Of a stretch of DNA of 64,000 nucleotides, positions 19,740 to 59,001 are shown piece by piece. Under the pieces are notes generated by a model that saw only the letters and a list, made by a program, of their open reading frames with translations, ran no database searches and was not told the origin of the DNA. Both the position numbers and the translations under genes were made by a program. This stretch comes from Paragonimus westermani (Eukaryota > Platyhelminthes > Trematoda > Plagiorchiida > Troglotrematidae): the NCBI GenBank assembly GCA_008508345.1, contig QNGE01000855.1, forward strand, positions 62,001 to 126,000, in the 5' to 3' direction. Position 1 is the first letter of the stretch. The number at the start of each line of letters is the position of its first letter.

Positions 19740-19890
19740 TGGTCACCGCGTCCTTTGGCAATCAAATACACGAGTAATAGGATAGTCACCGGAAATCCTA
19801 TCCACACGCTCCACATAAGTGGTGTGATCACTTCGGACAACACATGTTTCAACATGTGCTCCATGTCAGGATCGGCCACTTCTGCGTAGG
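19740..19890 (-). CDS. Neuregulin-like protein, transmembrane exon B
   Basis: This exon encodes 49 whole codons: an acidic juxtamembrane stretch (EVADPDMEH), a hydrophobic helix (ITPLMWSVWIGFPVTILLLV, continuing into YLIA) and a basic stop-transfer start (KGRG), the layout of a single-pass type I protein. The acceptor is a pyrimidine-rich tract ending TTTAAAG, with the exon starting at 19890 in phase 1; a second acceptor (ACGCAG, start 19881) keeps the same phase. The donor GTACGT follows at 19739 after CA (phase 2 exit). A later donor (CAAG before GTTACT) would extend the exon to 19681 and exit in phase 1. Entry phase 1 fits the EGF exon at 23790-23845. Joining exon A to B shifts frame and stops after eight codons, so B seems to replace A. 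Confidence 0.7.
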
Positions 19891-20143
19891 CTTTAAATGG
19901 GGACAAACACAGGGGAACACACGATGTAGAATACGAAAACAGATAACATGACGGGGTCAGTGGACGTGTGAATACCTGATTAGATGTTAACGTAGTTTGA
20001 TGAGCGTGCACGTGCAATGAAGACTATGGTGCAAACAAAAAAGGGAAAACAGCTGAGAACGTACTCTATCACAACAATAAACATGCGCCATCAAAGTTGA
20101 CTTCTCAGATCGGGACGTACACGAATCGAATGTCATGGCTTAC

Positions 20144-20246
20144 CATAAAGTGATTATTAAAGCGATCAGGATAGTAAATGTTGTCACGAACAAAGCCCCG
20201 AAAATGGCCACCAGTTTGGTTTGCTGGGACAGCAAAAAGTCAAGAT
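20144..20246 (-). CDS. Neuregulin-like protein, transmembrane exon A
   Basis: A 103-base exon between a strong acceptor (TTTTCTTTCTGCTCCTATCTCACAG is the tract; exon starts at 20246) and a strong donor GTAAGC at 20143-20138. It has 33 whole codons with two bases at each end (phase 1 in, phase 2 out). After a short juxtamembrane part (LDFLLSQQTK) comes a clear transmembrane helix, LVAIFGALFVTTFTILIALI, ending in ITL. In neuregulins the exon after the EGF domain likewise carries the stalk and membrane span. The distance from the last EGF cysteine to the helix would be about 20 residues, suitable for ectodomain shedding. It lies only about 250 bases upstream of exon B and has the same entry phase. 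Confidence 0.85.
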
Positions 20247-23200
20247 CTGTGAGATAGGAGCAGAAAGAAAACCGGTGGCATGCCACTCAAGGTCGTTTTC
20301 TGACCTTCAAATAAACAGTTGCTATTGGTTATTCAGGTGCACGTATTCGGGTGACTTACAGTTAGAATGGCAACTTAACATCTGCATATTCAAAAACTAG
20401 TTGAACATGTGTTGGCTTTTTCACTCAGTGGTCATGATTGGACAGTTTTATTCTGATATTTTCCATAGGACAAAATCTCAGTTGTGCTTATGAAAACATA
20501 TAAGTAGTACGCAGGACATTTTGAAAAGTTTGAGTCAGTCAGAAATTTGAACCGTATACAGAAGATTGTTTTACCAGAACAACAGTCCATTATTCGGCCC
20601 TCAAGAATGACGGATGACAAGCAACCTCTAAGAGTTAATGTGGTGGCAGGCAAGTTCGTATACTTGGACTATTTTATTCACACAGTTTTTTAAGACGGTA
20701 TCCGATCTCTTTCCCCCCGGTTTTCGCAACGGTAGGTTTACAAAACAAACCTATGATCAAGGTTTTCCATCGGCCAATGATACCAACACGAAAAGTGGCA
20801 ATCCTATTGATAACTCAAGGTAGACAAGTACTGGAGTATGCACGCATTAAACTCTAGACCGATATTCTTCTAAACGATTTAGTCAATCAAAAGAAGAAAT
20901 CAGGCAGCGTGTTCCGCTAGTAAGTTTGAAAGTAATTGCTAGGAAGCCACCCATTCACACCTGTGAACTAACCACATTAGATAAGAGAACCGGCCACTGA
21001 AAAATGAGGTGAATTCAAACTCCACAGTTTAAAAGATACCACCGAATTTGAAAAGTGGAATTTGGATATCTTGTGGAAGAATCAGCAACAGTCTTGTAGT
21101 GCAGCCTCTACAAAAATCAGATTGCAAGCAACAAGCCAAACACCAAAGAAGTAACACAGTAACAAAACGGTTACTGACAACCGTATCAAGATTGACCTGT
21201 ATCACTGACTAAGACCGTAAAACACTGGAAAACTAACGCAGGCAATCATGATTTTCCTCTTATATCCATATCTGGCCTAAACCCGAAGAAAGAAGACTTG
21301 GGTGCGGGTAAATACAGTATGATTTCACCCACCGGTCTCTATTTAGCCGAGTAGCACATGTTCCCAACCGGGTCAATAATGAAATACCACCTCTTTAGTC
21401 AATTACAGTGAAACCAGAGGTCGCGATCTCAGTTTCCACCAATTCCATCCATACTTCAAGCAAAATAGGTGTCAGCTGTCGGTCTGATTAAGTATCTGTG
21501 TCACAAGTGAAAAGTCACTAGCAAACGAAATTACTAAATGCATTCAATTTATTTGGAACTGGCAACATCCCCCTATGGTAGATGAATATAGGTTGATTAT
21601 TCCAGGATTATCAATAACTAGTTATGAGGTCTCAAGCAATTCCGGCTTTGTCTTGAGTCAGATTCATACAAGCTAGAACAACGAGATGCTTACATTCTGG
21701 TTCATTTAGTTTGGACATTAGGAAGACAGGACGCTGGTGATGACCTCTTTGTTTTGTTACCGACCCAATTCATATACGAAAGCAGTCATATTGTCCAAAT
21801 CCACCAAAGCCATACGTGTATATTAAGTGATAGTTTGAACAGGGCATCGGTCCGAGCACGGACAAACTCGGATCAATCATCAGATGGAAATGAATTAATC
21901 AACCACAACCCACTGATCGACCATAGTCACCGATTCAAACGATCACAGCTTGGTGGGAGTAGAACTTATATTGCGACCCGGGCTTTGTTCAAAATTTGAC
22001 GTTGGAAATCTACATAATAGTATATACGCAATCTTGTCGAAGAGAAAACCATTAGACAAAAAACTCACTGACTAATTAGTGGGAAATGGCTGCAACTGTA
22101 CTGAACCATAGTTTAGGACACGAAACGCATCCTCCTGAGTTAATACAAGTGTTGCAAAAAAAGAAGGTAGACATCTACGGTTGCTACTTCTCAAATACCT
22201 AGCTTTCTAAAGTGCCTGATTTTCTACATATTTTAGAGATGAGCGTTGCGAAGGGACCTCGTTGTACATCAAAAGTAGCCCGATGGTTGAGAAACCAAAA
22301 TCTGAACAGCATTCCGATCGGTACAAAAGTTGTCTACTGGTATATAAATTAAGATTCCCTTTGGCATGACTCATACGATGTTGCACCAATGACACGGTAT
22401 GTGCCCGTTCCTGTGTGTCAAATAGACAAACCAACTGCCTGCATCACGAACTCTACAATTGTATACTGAATAAAGTTGCCTATTGAACGCTGTTGCACAA
22501 GCCACATCACCTTCCAGGTTCTGTGTGTGAATTGCAACCACTCTGAAACAACAAATCTAGGCTCCAAGAAGTTCTGCACTTCTGGTGGAACTCCATAGGA
22601 GGGCTGCGAACGCCTGTGTGTGGATCTATCACATGTGAAGTCAGACTAGTCGGACGGATGAACTAGAGTTTGGTTTACGGTAGCGTGATGGAAAGCTCCA
22701 CGTCTGAATAAAAAGCAGCCAGTCGTTTGATATGAAGCTTGCACGTTCAATTTACCAGGGTCATGTATGTTCGTCAAACAGTCCTACCAATGGAGAGGAG
22801 TGAATAGGCAGGACCAGATGTGGATACCAGAATACTTCAAAACCTCATTTACTGTTCTGGACTACCGAAGTAAATCAACGGCTCCTGGAGTGGGAAAACA
22901 TCAAGCCTCATCGGATGATAATTGTCTAACAGTTCAAAGTGGAACACAGAACTGAAGCCCAGCCTTAATGAGCGTGGGGTTCAACTACTAACTCAATCGA
23001 GAATATTCATGGCAGTCTTTATCATAATTTAAAATAACAGTTCACCTTCGATCTTCATGTGTCCAGCGGAATCGTATGATTTTCCGGGAAAAGTACTCAC
23101 AGCATATATATATATATATGTATCGATGGGTGATCTAAGTATCCTAGGACAAGTCAGCGCGGTTACCAAATCAGTAGTCGTAAAAATCAGTGTATAATAT

Positions 23201-23789
23201 TCATACTATAGACGGTAATAGTATCAACCTGGGACAATCTAACATTTTTGCTAAGTGAATTCTTTGTTCCCATGTGTAAACCAGACACTTTGGTGACACA
23301 GTAGAATAGTTCGGATGTCTACAAAGTCGTAGCCATGGCACAGTGGTAAGAAAAACAACGACCGGTAGAAGATGACAATATCTGTTTACCCTGGACCATC
23401 GTGAACAGACAACAACAAGAACCTACGCTGGTATTCACTCTGATCCACTGCTGTACGTTCACACTGAGCACCGTAGAAAGGCGTGTGACAACTGCAAAAC
23501 GAGGAGGCAAATATACGGGAAGAAGTTGGACACCATATAATCGAAGAAATTGGCACCGATTTTGATGAGTTATGAAAGGAAAAAACGCTCAGTTAGTTAT
23601 GGCACCATTAAGCTTGATTATCGATGATCTGTTAACACTATGGTGATTGCAAGGATGAGACTAGTGCGAGACTGTGTAAGGATGAGACTAGTGAATTGTG
23701 CAGCAGGTGTAACAACAAGTATGAACAATATGCACATATCTATATACACGTCAATTTGCCATAGAACCACGTGTCGTCTTCCTTCGTAC
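20247..23789. other. Intron of the neuregulin-like gene
   Basis: Between the EGF exon and the transmembrane exons (minus strand). No other feature is recognised apart from an (AT)8 run at 23104-23119 and a 16-base direct repeat AAGGATGAGACTAGTG at 23651-23666 and 23678-23693. Confidence 0.6.
23104..23119. repeat. (AT)8 microsatellite
   Basis: Short uninterrupted AT run within the intron. Confidence 0.9.
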
Positions 23790-23845
23790 CAAGCAGGCCG
23801 CCAATGTGAAAATGGCACCGATCGCCGAAATACTGATGTGGACAC
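23790..23845 (-). CDS. Neuregulin-like protein, EGF domain exon 2 (cysteines 5-6)
   Basis: This small exon encodes CPHQYFGDRCHF, the last third of an EGF domain; vertebrate neuregulins have the nearly identical pattern CPNEFTGDRCQ. It starts at 23845 after the acceptor CGTGTCTAAG with a single base (G) that completes the Arg codon begun by the exon at 25864. This is the same place, just before the fifth cysteine, where an intron divides the EGF domain in vertebrate neuregulin genes. The likely donor is GTACGA after position 23790 (exit phase 1, matching both transmembrane exons). A second in-phase donor (GTATAT after 23748) would add 14 residues to the stalk. The C-terminal third of the EGF domain is where vertebrate neuregulin alpha and beta forms differ in receptor affinity. 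Confidence 0.88.
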
Positions 23846-25161
23846 CTTAGACACGAATATGAATTGAAGAGAAACCATAAGTGATCAGCACCGTAGACAG
23901 GGAGTTTTAAATACTTTGGTTTCATATGAGAAACGTAATTGTGAATTTCTTTTCGGAAAATAACCAGATCCAAGGTCACATAAAACTTGGTATGGACGTA
24001 AATGAGGGCTAAACTTACTAAATATAAACGTGTTTATGTATGAAATCCCCATCAAGGCATTGAGATTCATACTAATTTACTCCGACTACTTAGTATATAC
24101 TCTATTCTGACATTAATTCGTACTTATTTACCCTATATTTTCAATGATATGAGCGTACACTTATAGGATAATTGCCTGTTTGCCTGTTTGTTTCGAAGGA
24201 GTAACGGGCTTGTAAGCTCATGGATTAGGAGTAACAAACTCAAGTGAGAGTCATTTCTGGTGAAGCATCCAATTATATAATCAATATTTAATGTCATTGA
24301 TTGACTACTACCTGATAATGTGGTGTTACGGGGCTAAACTCGTGCCTAATACAGTGACCTCACTGGAGCAACGTAGCTAAAACCTAGATCGTATGGAATG
24401 CTCATTAATTCTACATCGCCTGCTTCGTCCCTCTGGGGGAAGTTGGCCAAGTGAGTAAATCTTACCGTCTATTCCACTGAAACAAATGGACTGGCTGATT
24501 TTTGTCTTCAACATAATGTACATATGAGTAGGATAAAAATATATTAAACAGAATTCATTCAGCACTCGACCACCTCTGACACCTCGTGAAACCTAATCGT
24601 GTCAGTCGCCTAAATGTTAGCCTCAAAAACTATTCCTACGATATCCTAACAATCTGTTCTATTGGAAAGAGGGATGTTACACGCGAGTTCACGTGACCTC
24701 ATATGATCGATTCGTATTTACCAAGTATCCATTCGTCCCCGTTCAGTTTACTGGTCGCTGACATCCCGGCCACATTGAATCAGAAAGTTTCTCCGTACGA
24801 TCTAACCAATTATCAGGTTGGTCACATGATTATTTTAATCCTTAACTGTGTAGCATAAATTGGTGTATTCTCACACAGCTGGGTAGCTGTATGCTCGAGT
24901 ACGGTAAACGAAACTCAGCATAAGAAAAAAATGAGAATCCAATCCCCTTCGCAACGTAATAATCTATATTGAATCGCAGTGGCCACATAATCAAAGAAAT
25001 GGGACAAACTTGGTTTATCATGCTGAAGTGATTTTTTTGTTGATAAAAAATGATCTATGTTTCAATTGAGGTGTGTTTTGTTAGTATGCCTATGGGGCCG
25101 ACAACTAAGCGAGATACGGGAAAAATCTGGTGTCTGTATAGTTAACAAACATGATTAATGA
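23846..25161. other. Intron of the neuregulin-like gene
   Basis: No features other than short GTTT-type runs (24172-24193). The Penelope-like insertion at 25162 follows within the same intron. Confidence 0.55.
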
Positions 25162-25596
25162 TATCGCGACAAACTCGTTGGGTTAGTTCAAACCACCAAA
25201 GGACTCGTTCTACACAATCGCGAACGCAGTCGGTCTGACCATTCTGTCTCTCACGTTGTCTATCAGTTCACTTGCAGTTGCGGTGACGTTTACATAAGCA
25301 GAACAGACCGACGGCTATCTCAGCGCGTGACCGAACACCTCCCAAACTGGTTAAAACAGCGCATGACACAACTGGAAACCGATGGATCGGTTACTCGAAG
25401 CCCTGCGTCATCGATTGCCAGACACATCATGATAACAGGTCACCAGGTGGTCCCACTTAACTCTTTCAAAATATTATTACGTCAGCAGAACCCGAAGCTA
25501 CTGGCCTTTAGCGAGGCCATGCTGATTAGAGCTCACCAACCGGCGCTGTGTGCACAAAAGTGGGTGAAGCAACCTATAGGGTTGCCGTGGTGGTGA
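25162..25596 (+). mobile_element. Penelope-like element 3' end with GIY-YIG endonuclease frame
   Basis: An open frame of 144 codons, truncated at its 5' end by a TGA at 25159, encodes a GIY-YIG domain: HVVYQFTCSCG, then VYISRTDRRLSQRVTEHLP (the usual YIG is YIS here), then SIARHIMITGHQV and the Glu-containing LLAFSEAMLIRAHQPALC, ending LPWW and TGA. It sits in the intron between the two EGF exons, on the opposite strand to the gene. The reverse transcriptase part is absent, so this is a 5'-truncated copy. The loss of the second Gly of YIG suggests an inactive enzyme. Related copies are at 32590 and 37690. Confidence 0.8.
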
Positions 25597-25863
25597 TGAC
25601 AATACGTGGTGTGATTGTATGCGTGTCCATACCCTGTCTATCTCTACTGTCTGTCTTATATAACTTGCATGTTTTACGTTTGCGACTGATGAGAGTAAAC
25701 GAAATGTTAACATATCGCAACATATGTCTTCTTTCTGCGCTGATGTCGCTGGGTTAGGTTAAGATGTCAACTTAGAATCAGGTATTCTTATATTCAAAAC
25801 CGTCGGACAACTTCACTGATAATGAACAGAAGATAAACGAGGTATTACGTTTTGCCTACCGAC

Positions 25864-25963
25864 CTGCACTGCAACACGTTTCGGTCCGATTTGAGCATGT
25901 AGCATTGGCCACCGTTCAGGCAGTAGTCGCGATCTTCATCCGAGCATGGCACCAGTTCAGTAT
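25864..25963 (-). CDS. Neuregulin-like protein, EGF domain exon 1 (cysteines 1-4)
   Basis: A 100-base exon with 32 whole codons and two bases at each end. It encodes VPCSDEDRDYCLNGGQCYML and, after further residues, NVLQCR: C-x7-C-x4-C-x11-C, with the CxNGGxC core that marks neuregulin and related EGF domains. The acceptor is TTTTCTTTTAAACTGGATACAG (start 25963); its two bases AT complete the codon begun by A at the end of the Ig exon at 47881, giving Asn. The donor is GTCGGT at 25863 after AG, and the next exon supplies G to give Arg before Cys5, so six cysteines in EGF spacing result. Using the next upstream acceptor would hit an in-frame TAA, which supports this start. The EGF domain is the receptor-binding part of ErbB ligands. 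Confidence 0.9.
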
Positions 25964-28900
25964 CTGTATCCAGTTTAAAAGAAAACTTTGTTTACAACTC
26001 ATCTCATTGTCGACGATTCTGAGCCATGTATCGAACTTCGGACCATTGGATGGTACAGAATATTACAGACGTAGCATCAGTGAGGAAGTTTTAAAATATG
26101 TACTTGTAATTATGCATGCACATAGGTTTGTATATGTTAGAGCTGAACTTGTTTGTGTCAACCTAGTCGGACCACCTCTGTCCCATGATTAGGGAGCCAA
26201 CTCCCAAGCAGCTACTGCACGTATGGTTCACAGTAAGTAAGCAAGGCTTTGGTCCTCAAAAATCGCCATATCAAGAAAATATTCAAGTCATTCTCGTTGG
26301 ACTATAAACCTTATATCACGAGATGAATAAACCTTGAAACGAACCGCCTGAAATGGTGTAACTCGGATATGTGGTCAAATGTCGAGTGAACGACAGCTCC
26401 ATGGACGGGAATTAAAACGCTCAGTATAGAAATGCAATGCAGGCATACTGTTCTTGGTAACGTGATTGTGTGACGTTGAGACAAATTCAGACACGAATGT
26501 GCTCGTAGTGTCCGATTGGTAAAAATGCCAACAACGTAACTTTAAACAGGAGATACCGTAAGCAGTAAACCAATGTGGGCTCACTCGATCATGTTTTTCC
26601 AATCATGGAAAATGATGAGTGCTATGGTCTAATACACCACTAATAGTAATTCTCAGAAACTTGATTTAGGATGACTTTTTATCAAGATTTTTTGGCGAGT
26701 TATAACATGAAAGCTCTTTTGGTTCCTCCATAGTTTTAATGTTTGTTTGTTTGTCTGTCTGAATTAGGTCTTACTAATGAAATGGCTGTCTGGCTTGTGT
26801 TTCCGAACGACGTGGGTTTCATTTCCACACTAGTCAATCATCTAGCTACTTAGGTCCGGTTTCATAGACCATCAAAGCTTCTATTCACACACACTCCAGA
26901 CGAATTCCTTCGGGTCTAACAATGAATGCGGAATGTGTAGGTAGAACCATGAATGATATAGCATGGCCACTTGCAGCGTTCATACGATCCAAAGACGATA
27001 CGAATGGGAAACAAGTTTCTCGGGAATGTTATGCCGAACGGCATCAGTAATGCTATTCGATTGATCGCACGCTGGCGCTTCATACAACCGTTCATACTAA
27101 TAAAGAAGCTTTAATGAAAACCAAAGTCGGATTTTCTATCAACCTAGCTTAAATAGTGCACTTCTGCCTCCCAAGAGGGCGATGTTAAATTTTTGTCACT
27201 AAAACTTGTATCGACCGCAGAACTATCCTCGGCTCTCTGGGTAGCACTCACGTTCACATCTGGCACTATAAGTGAACAAACCACCACGAAAGTACACCGT
27301 TTTGCTTTAAGTACTCCTCCTTAGGATTCCGTTTTGTTCACTGAAAGAATTCGTCAATCTGCAGACAATTATATATCATTAAATGACTAGACTATCTATC
27401 AACACAAGCTAAAATTGTGGTCCAATTATTAACTGAACTGTGTCAAGCGTGTCTGTTAGTTTTGTGAAATTCAACTCTTTCTAAATAAGATTTGCACACA
27501 AAATTTCACAGCAGTAAGCCCTGTTTAATCTCTTGATAAACACTAATGAAGTTTGCTTAATGGCATTCATCTGAAGTCGAACTCTATAATATTTCACAGT
27601 GCCTGTGAATATTTACCATATGAATATAAATTACATTCTCTATTTTGAGTGATCCAGTAAAAGATAAGTATCCCCTTATAGTCTCAGTATCACAATCAAC
27701 GTAAACCATTCCAACAGATGTTTCATGAACAAGAGTACTGTAAATGAAATATCGGTTGTTTTCAAACGTTCATTAGTAAAGTCTCAGTCATTCCAGTTTC
27801 CCTCCTCTAGCAAACTACTTCATGTGTGGTTCTCATATCTTCTAAAATGGAGTTAGTGTGAATATACGCGTACTATGCAAAGCTCTCCATGGTACACTGT
27901 TTTCAAACAAATCTGTGATCAGTTAATACACTATCTTGAATAGCATAATTTGTACACTATCAGCGTCGACTTTTATGTGATCTCAAAAATCAATACAACA
28001 TTATCTCAAGGGCGTTTGACTGCGCAGTAATAAATAACATCATCTTGAGTTCTAGTTTTATGAGTATTGTTTCGACAAACTACATTTTGAAAAGAATTGT
28101 GAAATATAACAATGCGAAAACTTGAAATACTTCTTCGTTAAGAAAATAAACAAACAGTGGTGAGATCAAGAGAACCGAATCACGTTTTGAAACTGGCTCA
28201 TAATGGTAGGAAAAAGGGTAATTTTATTTTGAAACTCGATTTTTCGACACAAAACATCCAGCAGATTTCAAAACTAATGGTGACTTCTGACAGTCTTTGT
28301 CCTCTTGTCATGAAGAAAGTTCGAGCAATCCAACAGGCCTATTAACGTTACACGTGAAATCAAGACAATGAAATGAAAATATGGCGAATAACTGTCTACA
28401 CATTTTTCACAGATTTAATCACATAATATCAAGCCTTTGAAAAATTTTGACGAAAAGTGAGAACTTTGCACACATTTCGTTACGGTCGAATCAAATACAA
28501 TTCACCGAATTTTCTCCGTGTAACTATTGCATGATCCGGTAAAAAAATGTGCACACAGCAGATCGAAATCAACCCTCCAAGATGGACAACGGACAATTAT
28601 GTGAACCTGGTAGTGTATTTTCAGAATAAATTTCTGAGAAGTAAGGAAGGATTTTTTTTGGCTAACTTTCTCACTTAATAACTAAGTTAAGCGACATGGT
28701 TAATCACTTACCCATAAGAAGTTGTCCGGATTTTTCAGGTTGTGTGACTGCAAATAACACAATGAATGTGAAATGATTACATACGGTTGTTTTGTTTGTT
28801 GCATAACCTTCAAAAATATTCAACAATATTAGTTGCATGTTGGAAAGCCTAACGAATGCGTCAGTTATCTCGGGATGGAAATGCTGACAGCGTAAAAAGT

Positions 28901-30350: not shown

Positions 30351-32589
30351 TGATATGTGAGTGTTCAAGCACCTACATTTCGACGATTTCGAGTTGAGCT
30401 TGGGAAGAAAATTTCAATATACGTAAGAAGTCAAAGGTCTTCAATAGCGCAGAGCCCGCAGTAGCGCCATCTCGATAAGATCATTAAGTTTACACTATGA
30501 AATTCAGTAAACACACGCAGATGAGCTTCCCATGTGGCCCCACTTAGAGGAACATTTTGTACAAACTATGAAGACATCAAACAGAAGTGATCGCTACTAA
30601 CTTGTCCATATAAACATGGAATAGATATGACGCATATAGTGAACGGACCCTCCAGATTATCTCGTAAAAATTCCCAGCGTAGTCATGAAAAACAATGTGT
30701 AGCGAACAAGCTCGTTTTCAGTGATTCATCATCAGGCTAAATACATCACATTTATCTTGTGCAGCAAAATCGTGTGTTCACCACTGAGATTTGACTTTCG
30801 ATTCGAAGAAGAAATAAAAGTATTAATTTCCCGATCGATGAAGAGGACATCGTGAAGTGATTAATAGTTTTTTGTTTCGATCACTGTTTACCACGTCGAT
30901 CTTTCTATCACACTGTGATACCTACGATCAACCAACTCAGTTATTCACGTAGGAATGGTACATTGTTTGGTGGTCACCGACATGCCATTTCAAGACTAGA
31001 ATGAAGAAACCACAATAACTTTATTTCGCACAAATATATGTTACAATTTACAGTTTCAATAGTGAGCAAATTCGATATTCGCACATTTCGAGAGTACAAT
31101 GCGAACGAGCAGTGTATCTGTGAATTTCTCTCAGTTCGATGTCAGCATCTGTCCGCGTGGTTTTGCCGGAATTGCAGGGTGATACTTTTACTGAAGTCTG
31201 GTCCTACACGGTTAATACTCGACCCAATTTTGTGGGGTTAGCACCACCACATATATAACAGTAAAAACACTATGGAGAAATGGCTGAATGTGAAACGATT
31301 TAACGACGGTAAGGGGAATATAGGTTAGAAATGCAAGAAGTCACAATACAATTGCTATCGACTGTGAATTTTGCCATACTCGACCTTGATGCCAACCTAG
31401 CGTTCGACTAAAACTTTGAACTTCAGCGAATAAGTCTACTCTAATAACAGGGCTTTCATCGAATTACTAGTCCAAGTCGAAACCGGGATGCGTGAACAGA
31501 ACTCTGCTCGACAGACGGTAAATTAGCACAAGCGAGAGCTATTTGGGTAAGCGAACCCGATAAAAAGAGGCTACCAAGTTAGATGACCGGTAATACCAAG
31601 CCGTACCCAAAACGCGACAGCTCATCTCGTCATTGATAATACGGTATTCTTACCGTACAGTGTTAATTTTCCTGAGACAGTAGTGGCGGAAGGTGGGCAA
31701 ATTGTGAACATCCTACGCAAGGCTTCATTTTCTTTTTAGGAGGACCGTTTGTTTAGTCATGTCATCATAAGTGACGGAAGCTAGCGACCGTTATCTGTAC
31801 TTTAATTAGACCATTAACGAACTCAGTAAACAACCCATCGGCGCCGATATAATCATCACAGTGGGCAAATATTTTGATTACTTCCAACAAACACCGGATC
31901 CCGCCAACCCTTGTGCTTAACAGGCACCAATGGCTTACCTGGTAAAAAAAAAAGAAGCCTCCAATCAATCAAGGGTGTGTTGAACTATTAGGAAGACATC
32001 TCAGAATACACCAATATCTTTTGCATCGGCAATCTGGGAATTTTTCACCAGGAAGCATTTTTGAATCGCAATACTCATGGTCAATTAATCAGGTACCATC
32101 AATAACCTTGCTCAACGAAAAACTGAACAGGAAAGGACAAACTGGGCTATGGCAAATACCTACTAACCTTGATCTTGCCCGAAACCCAGCGATAGACTAA
32201 CTTGGGGACGTTACCACAATTGGTGAATAAAAATCCCATTGTGCAGCTACGTCAACTGCGGCTCAAGGGGTATTTCGATGCATTTTATACCAATGACTGC
32301 GTTTGTGACTAGACAAGGTGCTCTTGTTACCGTGATACTTTACTCTCGTGAGAAAACAAGCCAGAAGAATTGGTGCATTCATTGGCCAGTAACGTTTTGA
32401 AGCATATCAGAGGTACAAATATGCCAGATTTTACTCAATTTTACCTTGACCAAACCATGCTATTATGTTATTGGAGCTGAAATGAAGAACTGAAAATACA
32501 GTCTCCCATGTTGTTTTTTGGTGGTTCGGTTAAAAAACAAATCAAAATCATCACTGTTGCTTCAAAATTAAACCTGTCAATTTCCATGC
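30351..32589. other. Intron stretch with no recognisable feature
   Basis: Only short random frames. A 10-base A run is near 31947. Confidence 0.5.
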
Positions 32590-32825
32590 ACAGCTGTCAC
32601 AAACATGCGAATCGCTTACTCGAAATCTCTCTTCATAGATTGCCAGACAGGTCATGGCAACAGGTCACCAAGCTGTCCCACATACCTCATTCAAAATATC
32701 GTTGAGTAATGGTAATTCGAAGTTACCGGCTCTTCGCAGAGTTACTTAAGTGGAAACTCGCCAGTCGGCGTTTTGTACAAAAGTGGTCGCAGGAACCCAT
32801 CGGGCCACGGTAGTGTTGATGTCGT
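32590..32825 (+). mobile_element. Penelope-like element remnant, copy 2 of the 25 kb family
   Basis: The DNA can be aligned by eye to the last 200 bases of the copy at 25162: GATTGCCAGACA, GGCAACAGGTCACCAAG, TCAAAATAT, GTACAAAAGTGG and the terminal GGGCCACGGTAGTG ATG region. Frameshifts and stops destroy the frame. It ends within about 20 bases of the start of recognisable Gypsy sequence. Confidence 0.65.
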
Positions 32826-32994
32826 GTCATGTGCGATGGTCGTTTGAACGGTCGGTGGGTTCACTCTCAAAGTTAACGGCCTGGCAGAATATGGTGTTGG
32901 AATCGATGGTCACGTAGTCAAACAACCTTTCGTCATTTACCCTGACGCACTTCAGGCTATCCTGAGGGCGGAATTTCTTGACCGCGTTGAGGCC

Positions 32995-33909
32995 GTGATT
33001 GATTTGAAACATGACAAACTCGAAACAAAGTACGGGGTGGTTCCACTAGTGAGACAGCTCAAACCTCAGCTCGGACAAATTCAAGCGAACGCACCCAGAG
33101 CAATACCAACATGTGACAGTCGGTTGCTGTATGAAGTGATACGCAAAGTTCAAGAATTGTTCACCACGGATCAGGACCAGTATGGCTATTGCGACTTGGT
33201 TGAACACGAAATCTTCATCGAGTTGAAACGATTTCGACCATTCGACCTCAGAAGAACCCCATTGCACTTGCAGCCGGAAATTGGATGACAATTGAAAGAC
33301 ATGCTGAAGGAAGGAATCATCGAGGAGACTGATAGCCAATTCAATTCTCGCGTCTCGTTGGTGAAGAAGTCCAGTGGTAAATTTCGGTTTTGCGTCGACT
33401 TCGGGCGGGTCAACGATATTACAGTCAATAAGGTCGAAGTAGTCCCGGCGGTGGCGGAGATTTTTGAAAAGTTACAGAACGTAAGGGTATCTACAGTGTT
33501 GGAATTACAGTCCGGATATAAACAGGTCTCAATCAAGCGGTCGAACTGAGACAGAACAGCGTTCACATTAGAAGGAAAGCAATACCGCTTCAAACGGATA
33601 CCATTCGGACTCTCAGGCGTCCACTTCACGTTCAGACCACTGATGCTGAAGGTGTTGGACGGATTGAGAAATATTGTTGTCTACGGAGACGATATCGTCA
33701 TTTACAGCACAAACGAGACAGAATATACAGTGCCCTGTTCAGCCGCATTGCAGAAAATCAAAAAAGTCGGCCCACGGGTCAATAGTTCAAAGTCTCAACA
33801 GGCGAAACAAGCGGGAGTACTTCTCGGTCACAAGGTCAGTCAGGGTGAGGTCCAGCCACTGCCCGAGAAACTGATGACGATCGAGGCTATTCCATTGCAA
33901 ACTTCGTAG
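32995..33909 (+). pseudogene. Gypsy reverse transcriptase, broken
   Basis: A single register with stops at 33286 and 33547, and a final one at 33907. Motifs: LKDMLKEGIIEETDSQFNS, a block like EGIIRPSxSPxxS; SSGKFRFCVDFGRVNDITV, like GxxRxCVDYRxLN; LELQSGYKQV, like DLxSGYxQI, with the first catalytic Asp replaced by Glu; KRIPFGLS, like MPFGL; and the catalytic box as YGDD (about 33682), followed by IVIYS. The box in Gypsy elements is usually YLDD or YxDD, so both Asp residues survive. The end GHKVSQGEVQP corresponds to the start of the thumb/connection. Confidence 0.85.
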
Positions 33910-33964
33910 AGAACGTTGCGACAGTTCCTCTGTCATAAAAAACTCCCCTGACTTCGCGAGTCCA

Positions 33965-34437
33965 TTGTACGAAATTCTGAAGAAAGATTGCCAGCTTCAC
34001 TGGTCAGAGAAAGTCAGTCAAGCGTTTGTCGAGATCCAAAGATTGATGAAGAAGGGACAGTTTACCCCGAAATTGCCAATGACTGGACACAGATTCGTTG
34101 TCGCAACGGATGCGAGTGATGCAGGAATCGGAGAGATACTGAAGCAGGAAAACGGTGTCGTGGAATATGCCAGTGGGTACTAAGGCCTGTTGAACGAAAC
34201 TATTCGACGACAGAGAAGAAGTGTTTGGGGATCGTGTGGGCCTTGGAAGAACGGATGCCGTACTTGCTCGGCTGATGTTTCCATGTGGAGACCGAACACA
34301 AACCACTGGAATGGATTAAATCGGCTAAGGACCCCCGTGTAAATCTGGCTCGTTGGAAATTAGGACTACAGAAGTACGATTTTACAATTCGCCATGTCGC
34401 CGGAAAAGAGAACTGTGTGCCCGATTCGCTTCCCTGA
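33965..34437 (+). pseudogene. Gypsy RNase H region, broken
   Basis: After a frameshift the connection appears as KKDCQLHWSEKVSQAFVEIQ, then VATDASDAGIGEIL, the RNase H start with its catalytic Asp. A stop follows at about 34182, and the register changes for ERNYSTTEKKCLGIVWALEE, containing the conserved TTEKE...IVWA-type block. It ends in HVAGKENCVPDSLP, the standard H-V-x-G-x-x-N-x-x-D-x-L motif, and a stop. Confidence 0.85.
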
Positions 34438-34446
34438 ACGCAACAC

Positions 34447-35214
34447 TTGGATGAGGTCCACAAGGACTCTATCGGATGTAACAGTATCAAACTGGAGAGT
34501 GACCCCGGAAGGTTACAAGTAACACACAGGATGGATACAGCCATGGGCTTAGTGATTGTCCAACTTTTGTCAGGAGGAAAACCGCCAGAAGACGATGAGA
34601 ATCCGGAATTGAAAGCTTTCAGAATGCACTGGCCCGACTTGCGGTTGAATAGTGCCGGAAGTTCGATGTGCCAACTTCGGCAGGGAATAAACGTTCCGAT
34701 CATACCGGCAAAGTTGAGGGCGACAGTTGTGAAAGAATGTCATCAGCTGGCTCATACGGGTTGTCATCAAACCTACGAAAATTTGAAGCAAAGAGCATAG
34801 TGGCCTGGAATGAAGAAGAGTGTTACCAATCATGTGCGGACGTGCCGGCAATGTCATTTACTGACGAGCACTAGCCACCCTAGCCAGTATACCACACCAC
34901 CAATCCCGGTCATTGAAATTGGAGAATTATGGTCGGTGGATGTGATGGGCCCCTTTCCAGTAACGACTTCCGGAGATCGATACAAATTAGCTATAACTGA
35001 ACACCTCACAAGGTGGGTCGAAGCAGTCAATATAGCTGATCAGCACTCAAGCACTGTATGCAGAGCAGTGATGGTACACATCTTTGCAGATCACGGAACA
35101 CCGCGAAGCATATTGACTGATCAAGGCCTCTGCTCCAAAAGTGAGGAGTTTCGGAACTGTTTGGAGCGTTTGGGAATCAAGAAGGTTCGCAAAACTCCAT
35201 ACCATCATCAGTAA
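34447..35214 (+). pseudogene. Gypsy integrase, broken
   Basis: The zinc-binding part is recognisable as ECHQLAHTGCHQTYENL and, after a TAG at 34798, WPGMKKSVTNHVRTCRQC. The catalytic core follows: ELWSVDVMGPFPV with the first Asp (about 34935), EHLTRWVEAV, and SILTDQG with the second Asp (about 35113). A TAA at 35212 interrupts YHHQ/NGLMEK, where the catalytic Glu should lie (normally NGxxER). Beyond this, scattered C-terminal pieces continue to about 35800 in shifting frames. Confidence 0.85.
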
Positions 35215-35847
35215 AACGGATTGATGGAAAAAACATTCACACAGTCAAGGAATAGTTGGCTGCGGAAGGAGGAAGCTGGGATGAAACGCTACCATTGATT
35301 CTGTTGGCCCACCGCTGTTCCCCACGAGGGATAACGAAAACGTCGTCATTCGAGCTGGTGTACGGGGGCATTCCACGCTTGCCAGTCGATCAAGAGACTG
35401 GTTTATGGGAGAACTGACGGATGACTACGCGTGAATTAGCGGAAGCTCGTAGATTGGCCAGCCGAAACTTGACAAACGCACAAGAAGTTTTCAAAGACCA
35501 GTCAACTGCGAGGTTATCGGGTCGAAGGGCTGTGTTCGAACTTGGATCTGAGATTAAATACCGAGATCAGCACTGCGCGGGGTGAACACGACGAGGATCT
35601 AAGAAGTTCCCGGCAAAGTGGAGGAGACCGTATGTAGTAGTTGAACGTCGTGGTCCAGTGTATCTGATAGAGACTGAGAAAAATTAATATCGAGTACAAG
35701 GGAGCCAGCTTTGTAAATGGTATAACACTCCGATTAGAAGAAGAGAAGGCACACCAGTTGTGTCAACAGCAATGAGGCCGGCACGCAGATCCTCGAGAGA
35801 ACGAAGAGGACCTGAATGCCTTTTGTTACAACTGGAACAATCTTTGT

Positions 35848-35858
35848 GGGGAGAGGAA
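35848..35858 (+). promoter_or_regulatory. Polypurine tract of the Gypsy element
   Basis: GGGGAGAGGAA, immediately followed by TG. In LTR retrotransposons this tract primes plus-strand DNA synthesis directly upstream of the 3' LTR. Confidence 0.75.
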
Positions 35859-36110
35859 TGTAATGAGGATGGGTGGTTGTAGTGTACTACTTACACCACC
35901 ACTATTCAGTAGTGAGGCAAAAGCATGGATTTAAACATCCATATGACCGCGGCACAAATACGGGAAGGATATGGAAAGGATCACTGAATTGCAGCATCGC
36001 ATAGAATGGATCTTGCTCCATGGGGAATTGAGAATTGGCGTCCATAGCGAACGTGACGTCCTGAGGCCAGTGTCGTGTGCAAATGCTCTGGTGAAGTTGC
36101 TAAAGGGAGT
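35859..36110 (+). repeat. Gypsy 3' LTR (partial)
   Basis: Starts with TG right after the polypurine tract. It shares TACACCACCACTA, CAGTAGTGAGGCAA and ATTGGCGTCCATAGCGA with the reverse complement of 52790-53324. Similarity fades after about 36110, so the right end is unclear. Confidence 0.75.
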
Positions 36111-44568: not shown

Positions 44569-44586
44569 TATATATATATATATATA
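44569..44586. repeat. (TA)9 microsatellite
   Basis: Uninterrupted TA run. Confidence 0.9.
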
Positions 44587-47880: not shown

Positions 47881-48005
47881 TTTGCAGGTTGAATAGTTCG
47901 CTCGCCTTACCCAGAGGATTTGTGGCCAAACACTTGTATTCGCCGGAATCGATTCTTATAAGATTGGAAATTTCCAGCACAGATTCAACATTGTCTTCAG
48001 ACACT
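47881..48005 (-). CDS. Neuregulin-like protein, Ig domain exon 2
   Basis: A 125-base exon with 41 whole codons: the C-terminal half of an I-set immunoglobulin domain. It contains VLEISNLIRIDSGEYKCLAT, with the D-x-G-x-Y-x-C signature that carries the second disulphide cysteine, then NPLGKASELF for the last strand. In vertebrate neuregulin-1 the equivalent exon reads LRINKASLADSGEYMCKV in the same layout. The acceptor is TTATTCTGTTTCAG (exon starts at 48005, one base completing AAA Lys with the AA of the previous exon), and the donor is GTAAGC after position 47881 (phase 1 exit). The exit base A joins AT of the EGF exon. The Ig domain of neuregulins binds heparan sulphate and tethers the ligand to matrix; the same role here is inferred. 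Confidence 0.9.
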
Positions 48006-48489: not shown

Positions 48490-48783
48490 TTATTTCGGAG
48501 GACAATCAACTTGATCGATAAAGGCTTGTTCGAGTGAATATAATCGTCGTTCCCATAGAAGACAAAAAATTACACCAATTGCAGCGGACTTTTCAATAAA
48601 GTGGAATGGTCGGAGTTCAAATTTCGGCCTTGGCAAGGATATGCACCACTGACGAGCTCTAATAAGAGCGAAACTCGAGTCAAGTGCTTCTTTTCGAAAA
48701 AGGCTGGTCGGAGTTTCTATGTGAATGGGAAGACTGCGATAAAATGTGAGTGATGGCCAACTTGAAAAAGTGAACAGTGACAA
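48490..48783 (-). repeat. Interspersed repeat, copy 3 (diverged)
   Basis: Same orientation as copy 2. Corresponding blocks can be followed (CACTTGACTCGAGTTTCGCTC against CACTAGAATCGAGTTTCACTA; TGAACTCCGACCA against AGAACTCCGGTCA). A 97-codon frame spans it and matches the translated frame of copies 1 and 2 at several positions, though the DNA is more diverged. Confidence 0.55.
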
Positions 48784-51700: not shown

Positions 51701-52790
51701 GCCAGCTAATCAGTCCTTGAAATTTCCAAAATCAAGCTGTTGCGGCAGCTGATCCATTGTTCTCTGAACATCTGGATTCGGCTCTTTAGAGATATGGCTT
51801 TTTTACATAGATTACTCGCTTATTAGTTTCAATGTCTATGTTGTGGCATAAATAGTGTTTTGCTGAGATTCACTCGTTTAAGGAAAATGCGATCGTCAAA
51901 TATGGCGACTTTTCAGGTGTTTCCGATGTGTTTTGCACCAGTCATGGTTGAGAACCAATACTTTAAGTGTGTTGAAAACTAGCGAGTTTCAGCACTCAAT
52001 GAAGTAAAACCCAGTAGGAACCAGTTTAGTTCGAAACATTAGAATCAGGCAATCAGTTCCGAAACGATTAACTGGAGCGCCAACCCACATATTATCTTCT
52101 CGTAGATTTTTCTTCGTGTTATCCCACTTATCCTCTCATCCTAAGACGCAGGCATCGGTCAGTCCTATCAAAGCGAGAATCACCGCAGCTGCAGTTAAAC
52201 TTGTACGGTATTGGTGTCCCCTTCTGAAACACAGAGGGTGCTAGAGGTCTGATGGGATAGGGTGTGCATAATAAGGCCACGTTTTATCTGTCGAATGGAC
52301 TTTGTTGAGCATTCCTTTCCAAGTAGCATGGAATCGTCTGCAACTCGATTAACAATCAGTTTGTCATAAGCAAATCTTCACTCGTAATTCCATGTTTTAA
52401 GTAAGTAGCCGTTTCGAACTCTCAGTAAAGGATATCGTGCCAGCCAGTGTTAATGCTTCAAGGGTGGAAAACTGTGAGAATTAAGGTGCTGTCCACCCCA
52501 GGATGGTCTTCAATATCCGGGTTGAAATAAAGTGCTATACTCTAATCACTGAACGCTAACGAAGAGAATGAACCCACTTTTCCGAAATCAGATGAAAACA
52601 AAAAACTGTGTTCGGTATGGTTTACTGAATTTAAGAAATTCTTAACTATTTGTTAGTCTTATGTTACAGTCAGTATGCTATTAGCAAATCCTCTGTCCAA
52701 TAAAACCTTCAAGATGTACTGTAAGGAGAAGGTGCTCCGTCATATTTTGAAGGGAGATGATAACCCAGGACCATTCATATGGTTGAACGA
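48784..52790. other. Intron stretch, no feature
   Basis: Short frames only (the longest is 113 codons on the plus strand at 49026, random composition). Confidence 0.5.
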
Positions 52791-53324
52791 TGTTGCCGAC
52801 GGTAATGGAGTGAGTCTAGTCCCAACATAGCCACAATTTAACCAACTGGCTAGAACGAGTCTAACTTCGAACGCTGACCTTCCCTGATTACGAAAGTCCC
52901 AATTAAGACCGATTAAATGAACTTCGGATATCTCCATATCGTCCGTTTACAACACTTAGCCCTTAGGTATTGCGTGCTAGAGTTGTGGACCAAGAGCGTG
53001 GATGGCACAAGGATCCTTTATTCGGCAAACCAGTACATGGGCTATGCCTTTCCACCGCACTACGAACAAAACACACGACACCGGTCTCAGAACGTCTCAG
53101 TCGCTATGGACGCCAATTCTCAGTTTCTTCATGTAGCAAGAGCCATCCTATGCGGTGCTGCACTCCAATGATCCTTTTCATATTCTTTCCGTATTTGTGT
53201 CGCGGTCATATCGGTGTTTAACTTCACGCTGTTGCCTCACTACTGAGTAGTGGTGGTGTGAGTAGTATGGAGTAACCGGCCGTCCTCCCTACGCTGGTAG
53301 TACATCCACCCATTAGGTTCATCA
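52791..53324 (-). repeat. Isolated LTR of the Gypsy family
   Basis: The reverse complement matches the 3' LTR at 35859: a start near TGATGAACCTAATGGGTGG (against TGTAATGAGGATGGGTGG), then CACACCACCACTACTCAG, TAGTGAGGCAA, TATGACCGCG, ATTGGCGTCCATAGCGA and GTGTCGTGTG. No polypurine tract or coding sequence was seen beside it, so it is most likely a solo LTR. The inner end near 52791 is an estimate. Confidence 0.7.
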
Positions 53325-54679
53325 GTGATGGTTGACGTCCTCTCTTAATCCGTTCAAAACAAGTCTGTCTCTATAAAGGAGTCACTGATTTTGCGCGATA
53401 CAGTTAAGCGTGAGAATACTCTAAATCTTTGAATGTTTGAAGATAACGGCACATGAACCATTACTCTTAACACCTAACCTACATTTGTCTTCCGATGTTT
53501 CTACACATTCTGCTCCATTCAGAGCCTTTCTGACTCCAATTCTTCGGGTTTGAGTTCAACAAACTCTATTTTGTACCACAGGCATCAAGGGCAATAAGAA
53601 CGTATATCACTGTTGATTTGTGATTCATGACATCGTACTAGATGGGTTGAAAGAAGGTAAACAACCCTTATAACTGGTCAAAGCTATTGCATTTACGTAG
53701 ACATTTCAATCAGGTCGTTCGAAAAAAGTACCAGATTCAAGATCTCCTCCTGTCAGAATACATCAGTGGTATACGTTCACGCCACGATGAGAGTTGAACA
53801 ACTGCCATACCCTCATGAGGCAACCGTTTTGACCATTAATTCAATGACACCGCGGTAGGCATAAACAAACTATCACACAGTAATTGCAAACCACATTCTG
53901 TTGTGAGCAGTACCTTGAGTACTCGATCGCCTCAAATGAATACATTGAAATTTCTGTAGCTTTAAATCAATAATCTCAAAATTGGAACCTCACTTCTGGT
54001 GAAAACAACATAAAGCGTTAAACCTGTTGAAACCTTAAGTGAGCGTAACAGAAACGTGATGTCCCCGTACGAATCGGAAAAACAGAACGAAACACGTCAA
54101 TAGGATCAGTGCCGTGTATGTCACGTGGCTGACAAATTGAGAGAAAGCGGACCCATTCTTTTCACCTGTTCTCTTCACAGATCACATCGCAAAATCGAGT
54201 AGGTTAGTCCAGCTTTCTAGTCCACAGTTATGTGCTTGTTCGATAAACACTGGGGAATTTTTCCGTGTTGACCTAGACATCTCCAGATCTCAAAGACTGT
54301 AAAATACCGTATGAGCAGAAGGTCTGGTAGTCAAGAGATGCCCCGCGGCATGAAACTTGTCGATCCGAATCTTGTTCGTACGATCTAGCCCTGCTGAGTC
54401 CAGAATGGATGTAACTGTTTAGCAGGTTGGAAGTAAACATCACTGAGTATGAACATCGAATGTGTACTGCTTTTGATTGCCGTCACTGATGAATAAGTCC
54501 GCTGCGCATGCAGTCCATGCATAGGTATAACCGACTGCATATTTTCGCGGTGGGACCGAAAGATGGACATTTTCATAACAACGATCCAATGACTCCGAGA
54601 AATTTTTGTTAGCCTTTAAAACCAGTTAGTTTATTTAAATCATAATGGTGGCTTTATCTCACAGACCAGCTCTATTGTG
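53325..54679. other. Intron stretch, no feature
   Basis: No recognisable coding or repeat sequence. Confidence 0.5.
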
Positions 54680-54835
54680 TTACGAAGGAGCGATTGTACG
54701 TATATATCGTTGGTCGAATACCTGATGATGGGTCACGTCTTCCACCATAGGCAACCGAGTTTTGCTGCCGTAAAGTAATACAAGCTTCAGAGTTCTATTC
54801 GAAGCTGATGAGACGTCCGTTAAAAGGAATAAAGA
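54680..54835 (-). mobile_element. LINE fragment, reverse transcriptase C-terminal part
   Basis: The minus strand reads LVLLYGSKTRLPMVEDV and then VFDQRYIRTIAPS before a stop, matching the LLYGCETW...VEDV...VFDHRCLRSIA block of the LINE family at 6-8 kb. Loss of the CETW cysteine and tryptophan and stops upstream show decay. It lies in the intron between the Ig exons, in the gene's own orientation. Confidence 0.65.
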
Positions 54836-57800
54836 CAGAAGTTTCTAAAACACAGCCGAGATCGTAGCCTTCAGCAGACTGGAGCAATGATCTACATCCG
54901 AAAAAGAATAAATCATACAACATCAGAGATTGTAAGAGAAGACTGCGAACATTGCTACTTCAAGTAGAGATCAGTATACTCATTAGAACTTGTTCAGATG
55001 TCACAAACACCCGGAAATTGTGGTGGAGGTTGTGTGGTGGACAGCCTTTAAAAATAATGCCCAATTCATCAATGTTAAGTTAGGTTGAAAACATTTGGAG
55101 CATAGTGAAATAAAGAACCGAAAAGCATCTGGAGATTTACGTGACGATGACAAACAGAGACTCTCAGAAGGTTCCAGGTAAACGAGAGTGGGTAGATAAA
55201 GCCTTGGAACAAATAAGCATTGTTGCTATGTGCAGTGTCGCTGGAGGACAGTTGGTTATACACAACATTGCTGCATACAGACAATGAATTGGCAAACTAT
55301 TGGATCACCATCGTATATCTGCCTAATCTCAGTAAATGAACAACTCTCTATTCAGGGCAACCATAATTTTTTTACAACTCCCATCTGTTGGAAATCATTA
55401 GAGATGATGCTGATGAGTGATTTCGTTTGAGTTACCTTCAAGTTTCATCACACGTTTAATCCTTGGAAGCAAGGCAGCGAAGAAGAATGAACAACAAACA
55501 GAGGTGACATTAAATTCAAAAATCAAAGTCCATGTTTACAGTGGGCAACTAGGTGGAGAGAAAGATGAGAAAATTAGTCTACCATAAATACCAACGTGAT
55601 GCAAAATTCCTCATTCTATCATCCTGTAATTAAGAGTTTACCGTGAATATTTTATCAAGACTTCGTGACATAGTTTCAATGAAATTTCCTTCGGTCTGAA
55701 TGTCAGATGTATTACACTTTGGTCTCCAAATAGACTGAATATCAGGGTTCACTTGAAAAGGCCTAGGTAAAGTGATATGGCATAAGTATGCGATGTTTCA
55801 TTATATACCTTTCTGACCGACAACCCACGTTTGTGTCTTTGAATGAACTCAGCAGGTACGCTGGACGAGACTGCAGCCCAGTGATTCGTGATTTTGTCAT
55901 ACACTACTTCATTAAATCGAGTGAGATGATCACAAAATTACTCATGTACCAGAAACCAAAAGGAAACAGAGAGTGTGTGCTTTAAAACAAAGGAACATGC
56001 CCAGTTAGCTAACTAACTTCGACCGTTGTAAAAGCTTTTTGTACACGAAAGACCACACAGCAAGGCTATGTATATTTTGGTCACATTCGGGTGATTCTTA
56101 AAGTCATGTTCCGCCGTGCCGAACGATGCTGCTCTGAACCTACATCCAACCAAAACCAACGGTCATGGATTCAGTTTACGGATCTGTTCACAGACTGCCA
56201 GACACTAAACAATAAGACGTGAGTAGTCGAAAGAACCTGCGTACGGTTAGTGTTGCTAAACACTGCCTATTTTAGGCAATCCGACTTTTTGGTTACCTTA
56301 TTCATATGCGATCGTGAAAGTTTTGACTGAAGCATGCAAGCACAAATAGATTTGATCAGAAACTCCGGTCGAATGCACACAGAGCTTCCTGTCAGCTGCT
56401 TTGTATATTGTTCACCTACAACGTTTTTGTCCGTGGTCATTTGGCTTATTTCCTATCACGCAGTTTCTCCGCATCCTGCCTTAAAAGTTCATCATTCCAT
56501 GATAGGACTACAACACACACAGTTAGGGTGTTTTTGAGAAAAATGTTTCGTGTGTGCATGGACAACCAAAAAATCAGTCGTACGTGCGTGATGAATAATC
56601 TGGAAAATTACCGCGTCAAGTTTTATTACTTTGAAGGGAAACAGTAGTGAACCCCATTATTTGACAAATTGTTGACTAATTTTCCTTACTTAAAATCAGT
56701 AAAATGACTCGCAACCATCCGGTTACCTTTATAAAGTATTCATTGCACCCAGGAACTTTAAATGCGCTGAACGTACTACCGTTAGCTGAATGTAGCTGCT
56801 GAAAGACATGAGTTGATGTCCAATATTACCTGTCGTCATCGATGGGATGTTAGTTTGTTTTGGGGTACATGACTCAGCTGAGATAACCGTGGGTAAATTT
56901 CACAGGCAAAGTGAACCAAACCGTTATTCTGTACACAGTTATTGTTAACTCACTGACAAGACAGGAAACAGCCACAGGCCCTGCTTGTGACCCATGTTCC
57001 AGACAGTATACTAAATGATAAGTTGTTAATAAAAATGTAGCCCATAATATTTATCGAGCGCCCATGATGAAAGTCCCCTTGCTAGCGAGTACAGTAGTTC
57101 TGTGTGCGAAATGGCCCATCAAAGGAGGCATGAACCATAGTTTATGCTTACTCACAACCGACTATGGATGTGAGAGGCCATATGAACCATTATTTCAGTG
57201 AATGATTATGTGAATTCAGCACTCTCGTTGACGACCAGTGATTATAAGTTATTCTAAAATGCTTCAGGTGGACACAGAAAAAAGCTTCAAAGTTTCAACG
57301 TTTTATAGGAGGATAGGACTTTACTACAGATGTTTCAATCATTTGAAAATGACGGAGGCAAAAATCATCACTCAAAGCCACTACTGATAATCTACTATCA
57401 TCACAACAATACCAATTCGCTTTGTCCCCCTAGTAAACAAGGCTAACTAGCTAACTAATTTTGTGTGGCAATATAATTTTTTCCCTTGTCGCTTTGCTAA
57501 TTATAACGATGAAGTGCTCATCTGAGGGAACGAATTATGTGGCTTGTGGTGATAGCAGCTATGCATGTCGAAACTGATATTGGCACGTCTTGCTTGATAC
57601 ACGGTGGAAGCATTTTGTTAAACGACTGAGGTGGGATGCATGGAAGCACGTTCTACTGTTACAAAATGAATATGGGAAAACGTCCCACTGTGAACACGAT
57701 ACTGTTAGTGAAGTGACCAGGTGAAGAAAAACGAAGTATCTAATCCAATCTTTTATCATCCTACGCTGAGGATACAATTTTGCATGTAGCTTACGTAGAA

Positions 57801-58838
57801 ACGTGGACTGTGATGGCGTAAGAGTGAACTCAGTTGTTACGGTGAAACTAGACCTCATTAAACAAGACATAGCAAATTACTGGCAATCACAAATCCCACA
57901 GATTCATCACGCGGAACTCATTTGAAGACAGAGTTCCCACGGATGGCCAAACTTCACTTGATGTCAACGGAAAGTGACGTACACAGCAATGACAGAAGCA
58001 TATGATAACTTCAGAGTTTTCCTGCAGCTTTAGGTTGCTTCTACTTACACCATACATGCTCTCTGATAAGAACCCACAGGTAACAGATCATTCACCTAAT
58101 TCAAAGCATCTCACAGTCTCCTTACCAAAGTTTATTCACAGTCCAATTATTACAGTACCAATTATCACTTCACCAAGTGAACTCATTTTCCGTACCGTGT
58201 TCTCAGACTGAACTGATAGTCGCATACTGTACTGATCAGGTATCAGCTTAAAATACTCAAAAATGCTCTAACTGATTGAAAACCAAGGGGTAAATACCCA
58301 ATTGTTGATCTGTCTTTGTTAGTGATGGCAATTACCTCAACCACAAAATGGTAGCTTCTTTTAGTTACTCGACGTGAGTGGATCTTCAGCTGTATGCAAA
58401 ATCTTGTCAGATCAACAGCTGCATCTCACTAGTGATGTTTGTTTCGAAATGTTTTCCCGAAAATGGTCACTAACAGAAAATTTGTTTCCGGCTTTAACTA
58501 ACTTCATTAGAGATGGATGATGCTAAATTAAAACTCAATCAAACCACAAATCACTACATTCGCAGACTAATACAAAGAATTTCAAAGCCGCATAGGTGCT
58601 TTAAGGGGCAAAGAGAAGAAGAATACATGGCGAATCAATAACTTAAGGAATTGCTGAGAAAGACAGTTTCTTTACAAACAACACAACCTTGCTTAGTCAA
58701 TTCATATGAACATGTTTTACTATCCAGTCAAAATCAAAAATGTTGCGGTGCCAAGCAAACCATTTCGGAAAAAAAATGTGATAATTATACGGCACAATTT
58801 GAAACGATACAAAAACATTACCCACTGCTTTGGCTTAC
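54836..58838. other. Intron stretch, no feature
   Basis: Right part of the intron between the two Ig exons. Only short random frames. Confidence 0.5.
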
Positions 58839-59001
58839 TTGATCATTTCAATTGAAATACTTTTATCGACCAAATTGAGTGATTTGCCGTTTTTTACCCA
58901 TACCAATTCCGGGCTAGGTTTACCGGAAGCGGAACATGTCACAGCCAGCTTGCTTCCGGGTTTCAACATCAGATCGTTTAAGGGTTGGATCTTGGGAGCG
59001 A
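58839..59001 (-). CDS. Neuregulin-like protein, Ig domain exon 1
   Basis: A 163-base exon with 53 whole codons and two bases at each end. It encodes the N-terminal half of an I-set Ig domain: LKPGSKLAVTCSASGKPSPE with the first disulphide Cys, then LVWVKNGKSLNL with the core Trp, then KSISIEMI. Vertebrate neuregulin-1 has the same elements in the same spacing (GSKLVLRC, FKWFKNGNELN, NIKIQK), and its gene also has an intron in this domain between the N- and C-terminal halves. The acceptor is CCTTTTTCCTTCTCTTCTGCAAAG (starts 59001, phase 1) and the donor GTAAGC at 58838 (phase 2 exit after AA). The exit phase matches 48005 exactly and gives Lys. Upstream exons with the N-terminus were not found in the window. 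Confidence 0.9.

Follow-up and report, generated by a model that had tools for sequence, protein, structure and literature searches.

Barberan et al. characterize neuregulin (NRG)-type ligands by an epidermal growth factor (EGF) domain, an Ig I-set domain and a membrane span, and they tabulate a neuregulin-like ligand of Schistosoma mansoni (PMC4914847). In the ErbB ligands, as described by Stein and Staros, the EGF module is near the membrane span and is divided by a splice site between cysteines 4 and 5; all the verified ones, except the tomoregulins (Tyr, Gln or His), have an Arg before cysteine 6 (PMC1618406). A cestode neuregulin, EmNRG of Echinococcus multilocularis, was tested by RNA interference and two-hybrid assays and interacts with the parasite EGFRs EmER1 and EmER2 (PMC12963305). 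In vertebrates, the alpha and beta EGF types of NRG1 differ in receptor binding (PMC5317163). Here, we describe a gene on the minus strand of a 64,000-nucleotide stretch of the lung fluke Paragonimus westermani (contig QNGE01000855.1, or C855:62001-126000, part of an 823-Mb assembly; hereafter the window, whose numbering is used unless the contig is named). We consider it likely that the product of this gene is a membrane-anchored ErbB/EGFR ligand of the neuregulin type, and that two exons each encode the second half of its EGF domain, exactly one of them being spliced in, so that two ligand forms are made. The gene belongs to a family that is already known, also in other flatworms; the new part is the exon pair.

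The EGF domain is interrupted between cysteines 4 and 5 by a phase-2 intron after position 25864. Exon EGFa (25864..25963, phase 1 to 2) encodes cysteines 1–4, and two exons further downstream each encode cysteines 5–6: b1 (23790..23845, 56 nt, GDRC followed by HFHIGGLL) and b2 (23427..23491, 65 nt, GAQC followed by ERTAVDQSEYQ). b1 lies 298 nt upstream of b2; each begins one base before cysteine 5, and the entry phase (2) and the exit phase (1) are identical. The first-pass annotation of this DNA had completed the EGF domain with b2, which is matched over 23 of 23 residues by the public P. westermani protein P0001, and had overlooked b1. The latter, bounded by splice sites, was found in the window by tblastn with three trematode proteins (P0005, P0006 and P0007), whose EGF second half differs from that of P0001. 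A longer b2 exon ending at 23390 was ruled out, its phase being wrong for the exon of the membrane span.

Inclusion of both exons leads to a stop at codon 399, and inclusion of neither to a stop at codon 353. Either exon alone preserves the full frame (595 or 598 residues), and an intact product therefore needs exactly one of them. Frame-exclusive tandem exons of equal phase for cysteines 5–6, as an NRG1-style alpha/beta pair requires, are present at this locus. We scanned for the exon pattern (AG-bounded, phase-2 entry, C-x3-aromatic-x-G-x2-C and a phase-1 GT) and obtained two matches in the window, namely b1 and b2, and none in 100 first-order simulated 64-kb strands. On both strands of 174 kb of the contig, the same two alone were found. 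A search of the assembly that skips very common words matched the b2 region at one place, which ruled out b2 as a repeat-derived sequence. We infer that both exons are used in RNA. Among the matches listed, none of the papers dealt with alternative exons for the EGF domain of a flatworm neuregulin, and none combined neuregulin and trematode.

The identity of the gene as a neuregulin-type ErbB ligand, proposed in the first-pass annotation, is well supported at the sequence level, because the best match of its EGF domain is neuregulin-1, its splice site between cysteines 4 and 5 lies near the membrane span, its N-terminal domain resembles NRG2_N (below the cut-off) and orthologues are named pro-neuregulin-2. 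EGFa alone matched neuregulin 1 in the PDB (9.8e-6). For EGFa joined to b1, neuregulin 1 was the best of 44 PDB matches (2.2e-11), and for EGFa joined to b2, heregulin alpha was the best of 41 (1.8e-8); neuregulin-1 is thus the top match for both forms, and the closest relatives of the EGF domain are ErbB ligands. Below neuregulin came other ErbB ligands and then, more weakly, urokinase, factor IX and Notch domains; an ant-venom EGF peptide stood near the neuregulin rows (4th of 41 for the b2 form, 6th of 44 for the b1 form). The isolated b1 EGF domain scored 22.1 bits with Pfam EGF (cut-off 21.5), and b2 scored about the same.

One EGF domain, an Ig I-set domain (Pfam, 1.1e-15 on the joined exons and 2.6e-15 in the full model) and a membrane span (hydropathy maximum of 2.14 at residues 388–408 of the model) are all present, as the first-pass annotation had read them. 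Cysteine 6 lies 32 (b1) or 35 (b2) residues from the span in the joined models, with the span placed by hydropathy. The cysteine spacing had been misread at the second gap: C-x7-C-x5-C-x11-C-x-C-x8-C is found instead of C-x7-C-x4-C-x11-C-x-C-x8-C. The Arg before cysteine 6 is present in b1 (GDRC) and missing from b2 (GAQC).

The pieces described in the first-pass annotation, which counted six exons, were all located, and five exons join in phase 1-2-1-2-1-2 through GT/AG sites: IgA (58839..59001, phase 1 to 2, first half of the Ig I-set domain), IgB (47881..48005, phase 2 to 1, second half, with DSGEYKC), EGFa, b2 and TM (19740..19890, phase 1 to 2, juxtamembrane stalk and membrane span). A sixth exon in this interval, a 36-nt linker between Ig and EGF (28712..28747, phase 1 to 1), has splice sites and a tblastn match of 11 of 12 residues to P0005. 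The extent of ∼39 kb first given was too small. Three tail exons follow, of which the first (12669..12717, phase 2 to 0; matched by P0001 and P0005) encodes a basic segment after the span, the second (10699..10840, phase 0 to 1) is matched at 98% by P0001, and the third (4882..5237; P0001, 93% over 117 residues, and the joined model) contains the stop codon. The first exon, which encodes the N-terminal domain and a hydrophobic signal stretch, lies at positions 140191-139582 of the contig, ∼14 kb past the end of the window; from this exon to the stop codon, the gene spans ∼73 kb. An alternative acceptor of the TM exon, 12 nt downstream, was ruled out as P0001 uses the upstream acceptor. An Rfam search gave nothing at the gathering thresholds.

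The joined model is identical to P0001 at 256 of 265 residues without gaps, over the EGF second half (b2), span and tail, and all nine differences fall in the tail. The Paragonimus heterotremus protein P0005 matches IgA, IgB, the linker, EGFa, b1, TM and two tail exons. Its cleanest matches are TM (100% over 51 residues), the second tail exon (94%) and IgA (91% over 54 residues); most others extend into intron residues at their ends, and the 12-residue linker match is weak by itself (E 0.07). We conclude that the exon chain is not a chance assembly, because of the gapless match to P0001, the multi-exon match to P. heterotremus and the absence of the EGF-exon pattern from the simulated strands. 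A search of the assembly with P0005 gave nine matches, seven of which are exons of this gene, the other two (on C32 and C556) being weak and confined to Ig. With this query, and in a search that scores only the best candidates, it is the sole neuregulin-like locus found in the assembly.

Searches of the protein collection (E up to 0.001), which the first-pass annotation had recommended along with profile searches, retained 4 of 53, 6 of 108 and 12 of 7,401 candidates, together eleven trematode proteins and one insect fasciclin-2 that covers 18% of the query. Two of the orthologues are named pro-neuregulin-2 (Fasciola gigantica, P0008; Schistosoma mekongi, P0010); those of P. heterotremus, Opisthorchis felineus (P0006), Calicophoron daubneyi (P0007) and S. 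turkestanicum (P0009) are not so named. P. westermani itself has two separate public models, P0001 (P879_05143; end of EGFa, b2, span and tail) and P0011 (P879_09411; first exon only). Neither contains the Ig exons or cysteines 1–3 of the EGF domain, which the first-pass annotation had recovered. The P879 and PHET gene tags, which we take to come from PMC7370270, are absent from its text, and its RNA-seq-aided annotation was not counted for b2.

The N-terminal domain (L004:3583-4005, or contig positions 139583-140005) lies beyond the window in the same gene. Its top family was NRG2_N (PF25518; 9.5e-4, 19.8 bits compared to a cut-off of 27 bits), which was matched by four of nine aligned proteins at E up to 1. 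As the structure predicted for the full-length protein was poor (mean pLDDT 60.7), the domain was folded and searched alone. It is predicted to have an agrin-NtA/netrin-like (NTR) fold; agrin NtA ranked above TIMP, PCOLCE and complement C3/C5 chains, which share this fold.

An ordinary trematode neuregulin with b1 only, in which b2 is a relic or a never-used exon that the P. westermani model took up by predictor error, is unlikely in our judgement, but it keeps a real share of the probability. The other trematode models found with a complete EGF domain, six in number (P0005–P0010), all have b1-type sequence, P0001 alone among the models found uses b2, and the conserved Arg is missing from b2. 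Against this reading, b2 has retained its two splice sites with phases of exactly 2 to 1, and its frame is open and bears the aromatic-x-G-x-x-C signature; b2 exceeds b1 in its polypyrimidine tract (14 versus 11 of 17) and donor (6 versus 5 of 9), is about the equal of b1 as an EGF domain, and is unchanged in P0001. The donors of b1 (23790) and b2 (23427) are both weak, as is often the case in regulated exons, but those of the TM and first exons also score 6.

Besides the sole use of b2 by P0001, several observations weigh against two exons in a working neuregulin-type ligand. The b1 donor is the weakest of the ten in the gene. The partial Opisthorchis viverrini models (P0003 and P0004) run from EGFa into unrelated sequence, neither b1 nor b2. 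The identity of b2 to P0001 is weak evidence of constraint, because the compared sources are closely related. The full-length model scores 15.4 bits with Pfam EGF, under the cut-off, and gave no Pfam match to the neuregulin intracellular domain at E up to 1, a domain that is not part of the NRG-type description; the cytoplasmic tail has no recognised domain. The b1-type exon of F. gigantica has Gln before cysteine 6, and loss of the Arg therefore need not abolish function.

The predicted product consists of a signal sequence, the N-terminal domain, the Ig I-set domain, a spacer, a single EGF domain, the membrane span and a cytoplasmic tail, and splicing must take exactly one of b1 and b2. The ectodomain may be shed or may be presented to EGFR-family receptors of the fluke itself. 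In the same genome, there are receptor L-domain exons closest to LET-23/EGFR (L024, on C901) and to ErbB3 (L025, on C722), and an insulin-receptor-like one on C4983; a further receptor L-domain exon, L026, is also on C901. By analogy with vertebrate NRG1, the b1 and b2 forms may differ in their effect on receptors. The b1 form would be a conventional beta-like agonist, and b2 might be weak, have a different target or act as a blocker, because Gln replaces the Arg before cysteine 6. In human EGF, binding reportedly fell below 1% when this Arg was replaced (PMC3554757), a loss that may be partly structural (PMC1618406). It is possible, if on balance doubtful, that mutually exclusive splicing switches between the beta-like agonist b1 and a b2 form that, for want of the receptor-contacting Arg, is weak, acts on another fluke EGFR or is a membrane-bound blocker; splicing of the alpha/beta type would then occur in protostomes, either by convergence or from the bilaterian ancestor.

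The more specific proposal that b1 and b2 are the flatworm counterparts of vertebrate beta and alpha, an exon pair as old as the bilaterian ancestor, appears quite improbable. Over 13 residues (BLOSUM62), b1 scored 45 with beta and 19 with b2, and b2 scored 29 with alpha and 24 with beta. All six b1-type segments compared (five distinct) are closer to beta than to alpha, and the best PDB match was a beta form for b1 (3u7u, assigned as beta by reading its sequence) and the alpha form for b2. In shuffle tests, the likeness of b1 to beta was significant (p 0.005), but that of b2 to alpha was not (p 0.28), and there are too few residues for a tree. The exon order also appears to be the reverse of that in human NRG1, where on double inclusion the frame shift falls in the beta exon (PMC11360300) and alpha is therefore upstream of beta.

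We give next to no credence to the reading of the Ig-EGF-span chain as a general adhesion or matrix protein, and rejected it: in the PDB, the joined protein is matched best through its Ig domain (neurofascin, DSCAM, contactin and titin), its Pfam EGF scores are under the cut-off and the profile search that the first-pass annotation had named as able to overturn its proposal gave a generic I-set with many adhesion matches, but the best EGF match was neuregulin-1, and the single EGF domain near the membrane with its splice site between cysteines 4 and 5, the NRG2_N-like N-terminus, the orthology to trematode proteins named neuregulin and the same layout in a tested cestode neuregulin do not fit such a protein.

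Decayed pol frames of a long terminal repeat (LTR) retrotransposon (reverse transcriptase, RNase H and integrase-like, recognised by eye) lie on the plus strand at 32848-35214, in the intron that separates IgB from the linker; the highest G+C content of the window (0.466) is at 32001-36000. A reverse transcriptase fragment (plus strand, 6906-7412; Pfam RVT_1, 2.5e-8) lies within the intron that precedes the last tail exon. A 217-residue frame at 198-851 (minus strand) has a sub-threshold GIY-YIG match (0.0085) and is possibly a Penelope-like element.

EGFR signalling steers flatworm stem cells, and a complete ligand gene of a lung fluke offers a likely endogenous partner for fluke receptors. 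EGFR is a candidate drug target in parasites, as reported for afatinib on EmER1 (PMC12963305). If the exon pair is used, it would allow the effect on receptor choice of exchanging the last third of an EGF domain to be tested within a single gene, and would bear on whether alpha/beta splicing of neuregulins is a vertebrate invention. The view that such ligands of parasitic flatworms are little characterised, expressed in the first-pass annotation, holds within limits set by the tabulated S. mansoni ligand (PMC4914847) and the tested cestode neuregulin (PMC12963305).

Compared with vertebrate NRG1 and NRG2, the fluke gene has the same series of Ig domain, spacer exon, EGF domain, span and tail, with an NRG2_N-like N-terminal domain. 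The EGF domain is likewise split between cysteines 4 and 5, and cysteines 5–6 are encoded by either of two exons; the frame shifts when both are included, as has been reported for human NRG1-VII alpha-beta3 (PMC11360300). The fluke gene differs in that no neuregulin intracellular domain was found by Pfam in the full model and in its apparently reversed exon order; b2 is without the Arg that both human NRG1 forms have, and the fluke pair is known from DNA. EmNRG (EmuJ_000090400) is alike by description, with a signal peptide, an Ig domain, one EGF domain and a span (PMC12963305), but it is a cestode gene, and the word 'intron' occurs nowhere in that paper. The trematode proteins P0005–P0010 are alignable over the N-terminal, Ig and EGF domains, but as protein models they show the b1-type EGF exon only. 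P879_05143 and P879_09411 represent the same gene, split in two, with the Ig domain and the first three EGF cysteines omitted and with b2 as the exon used.

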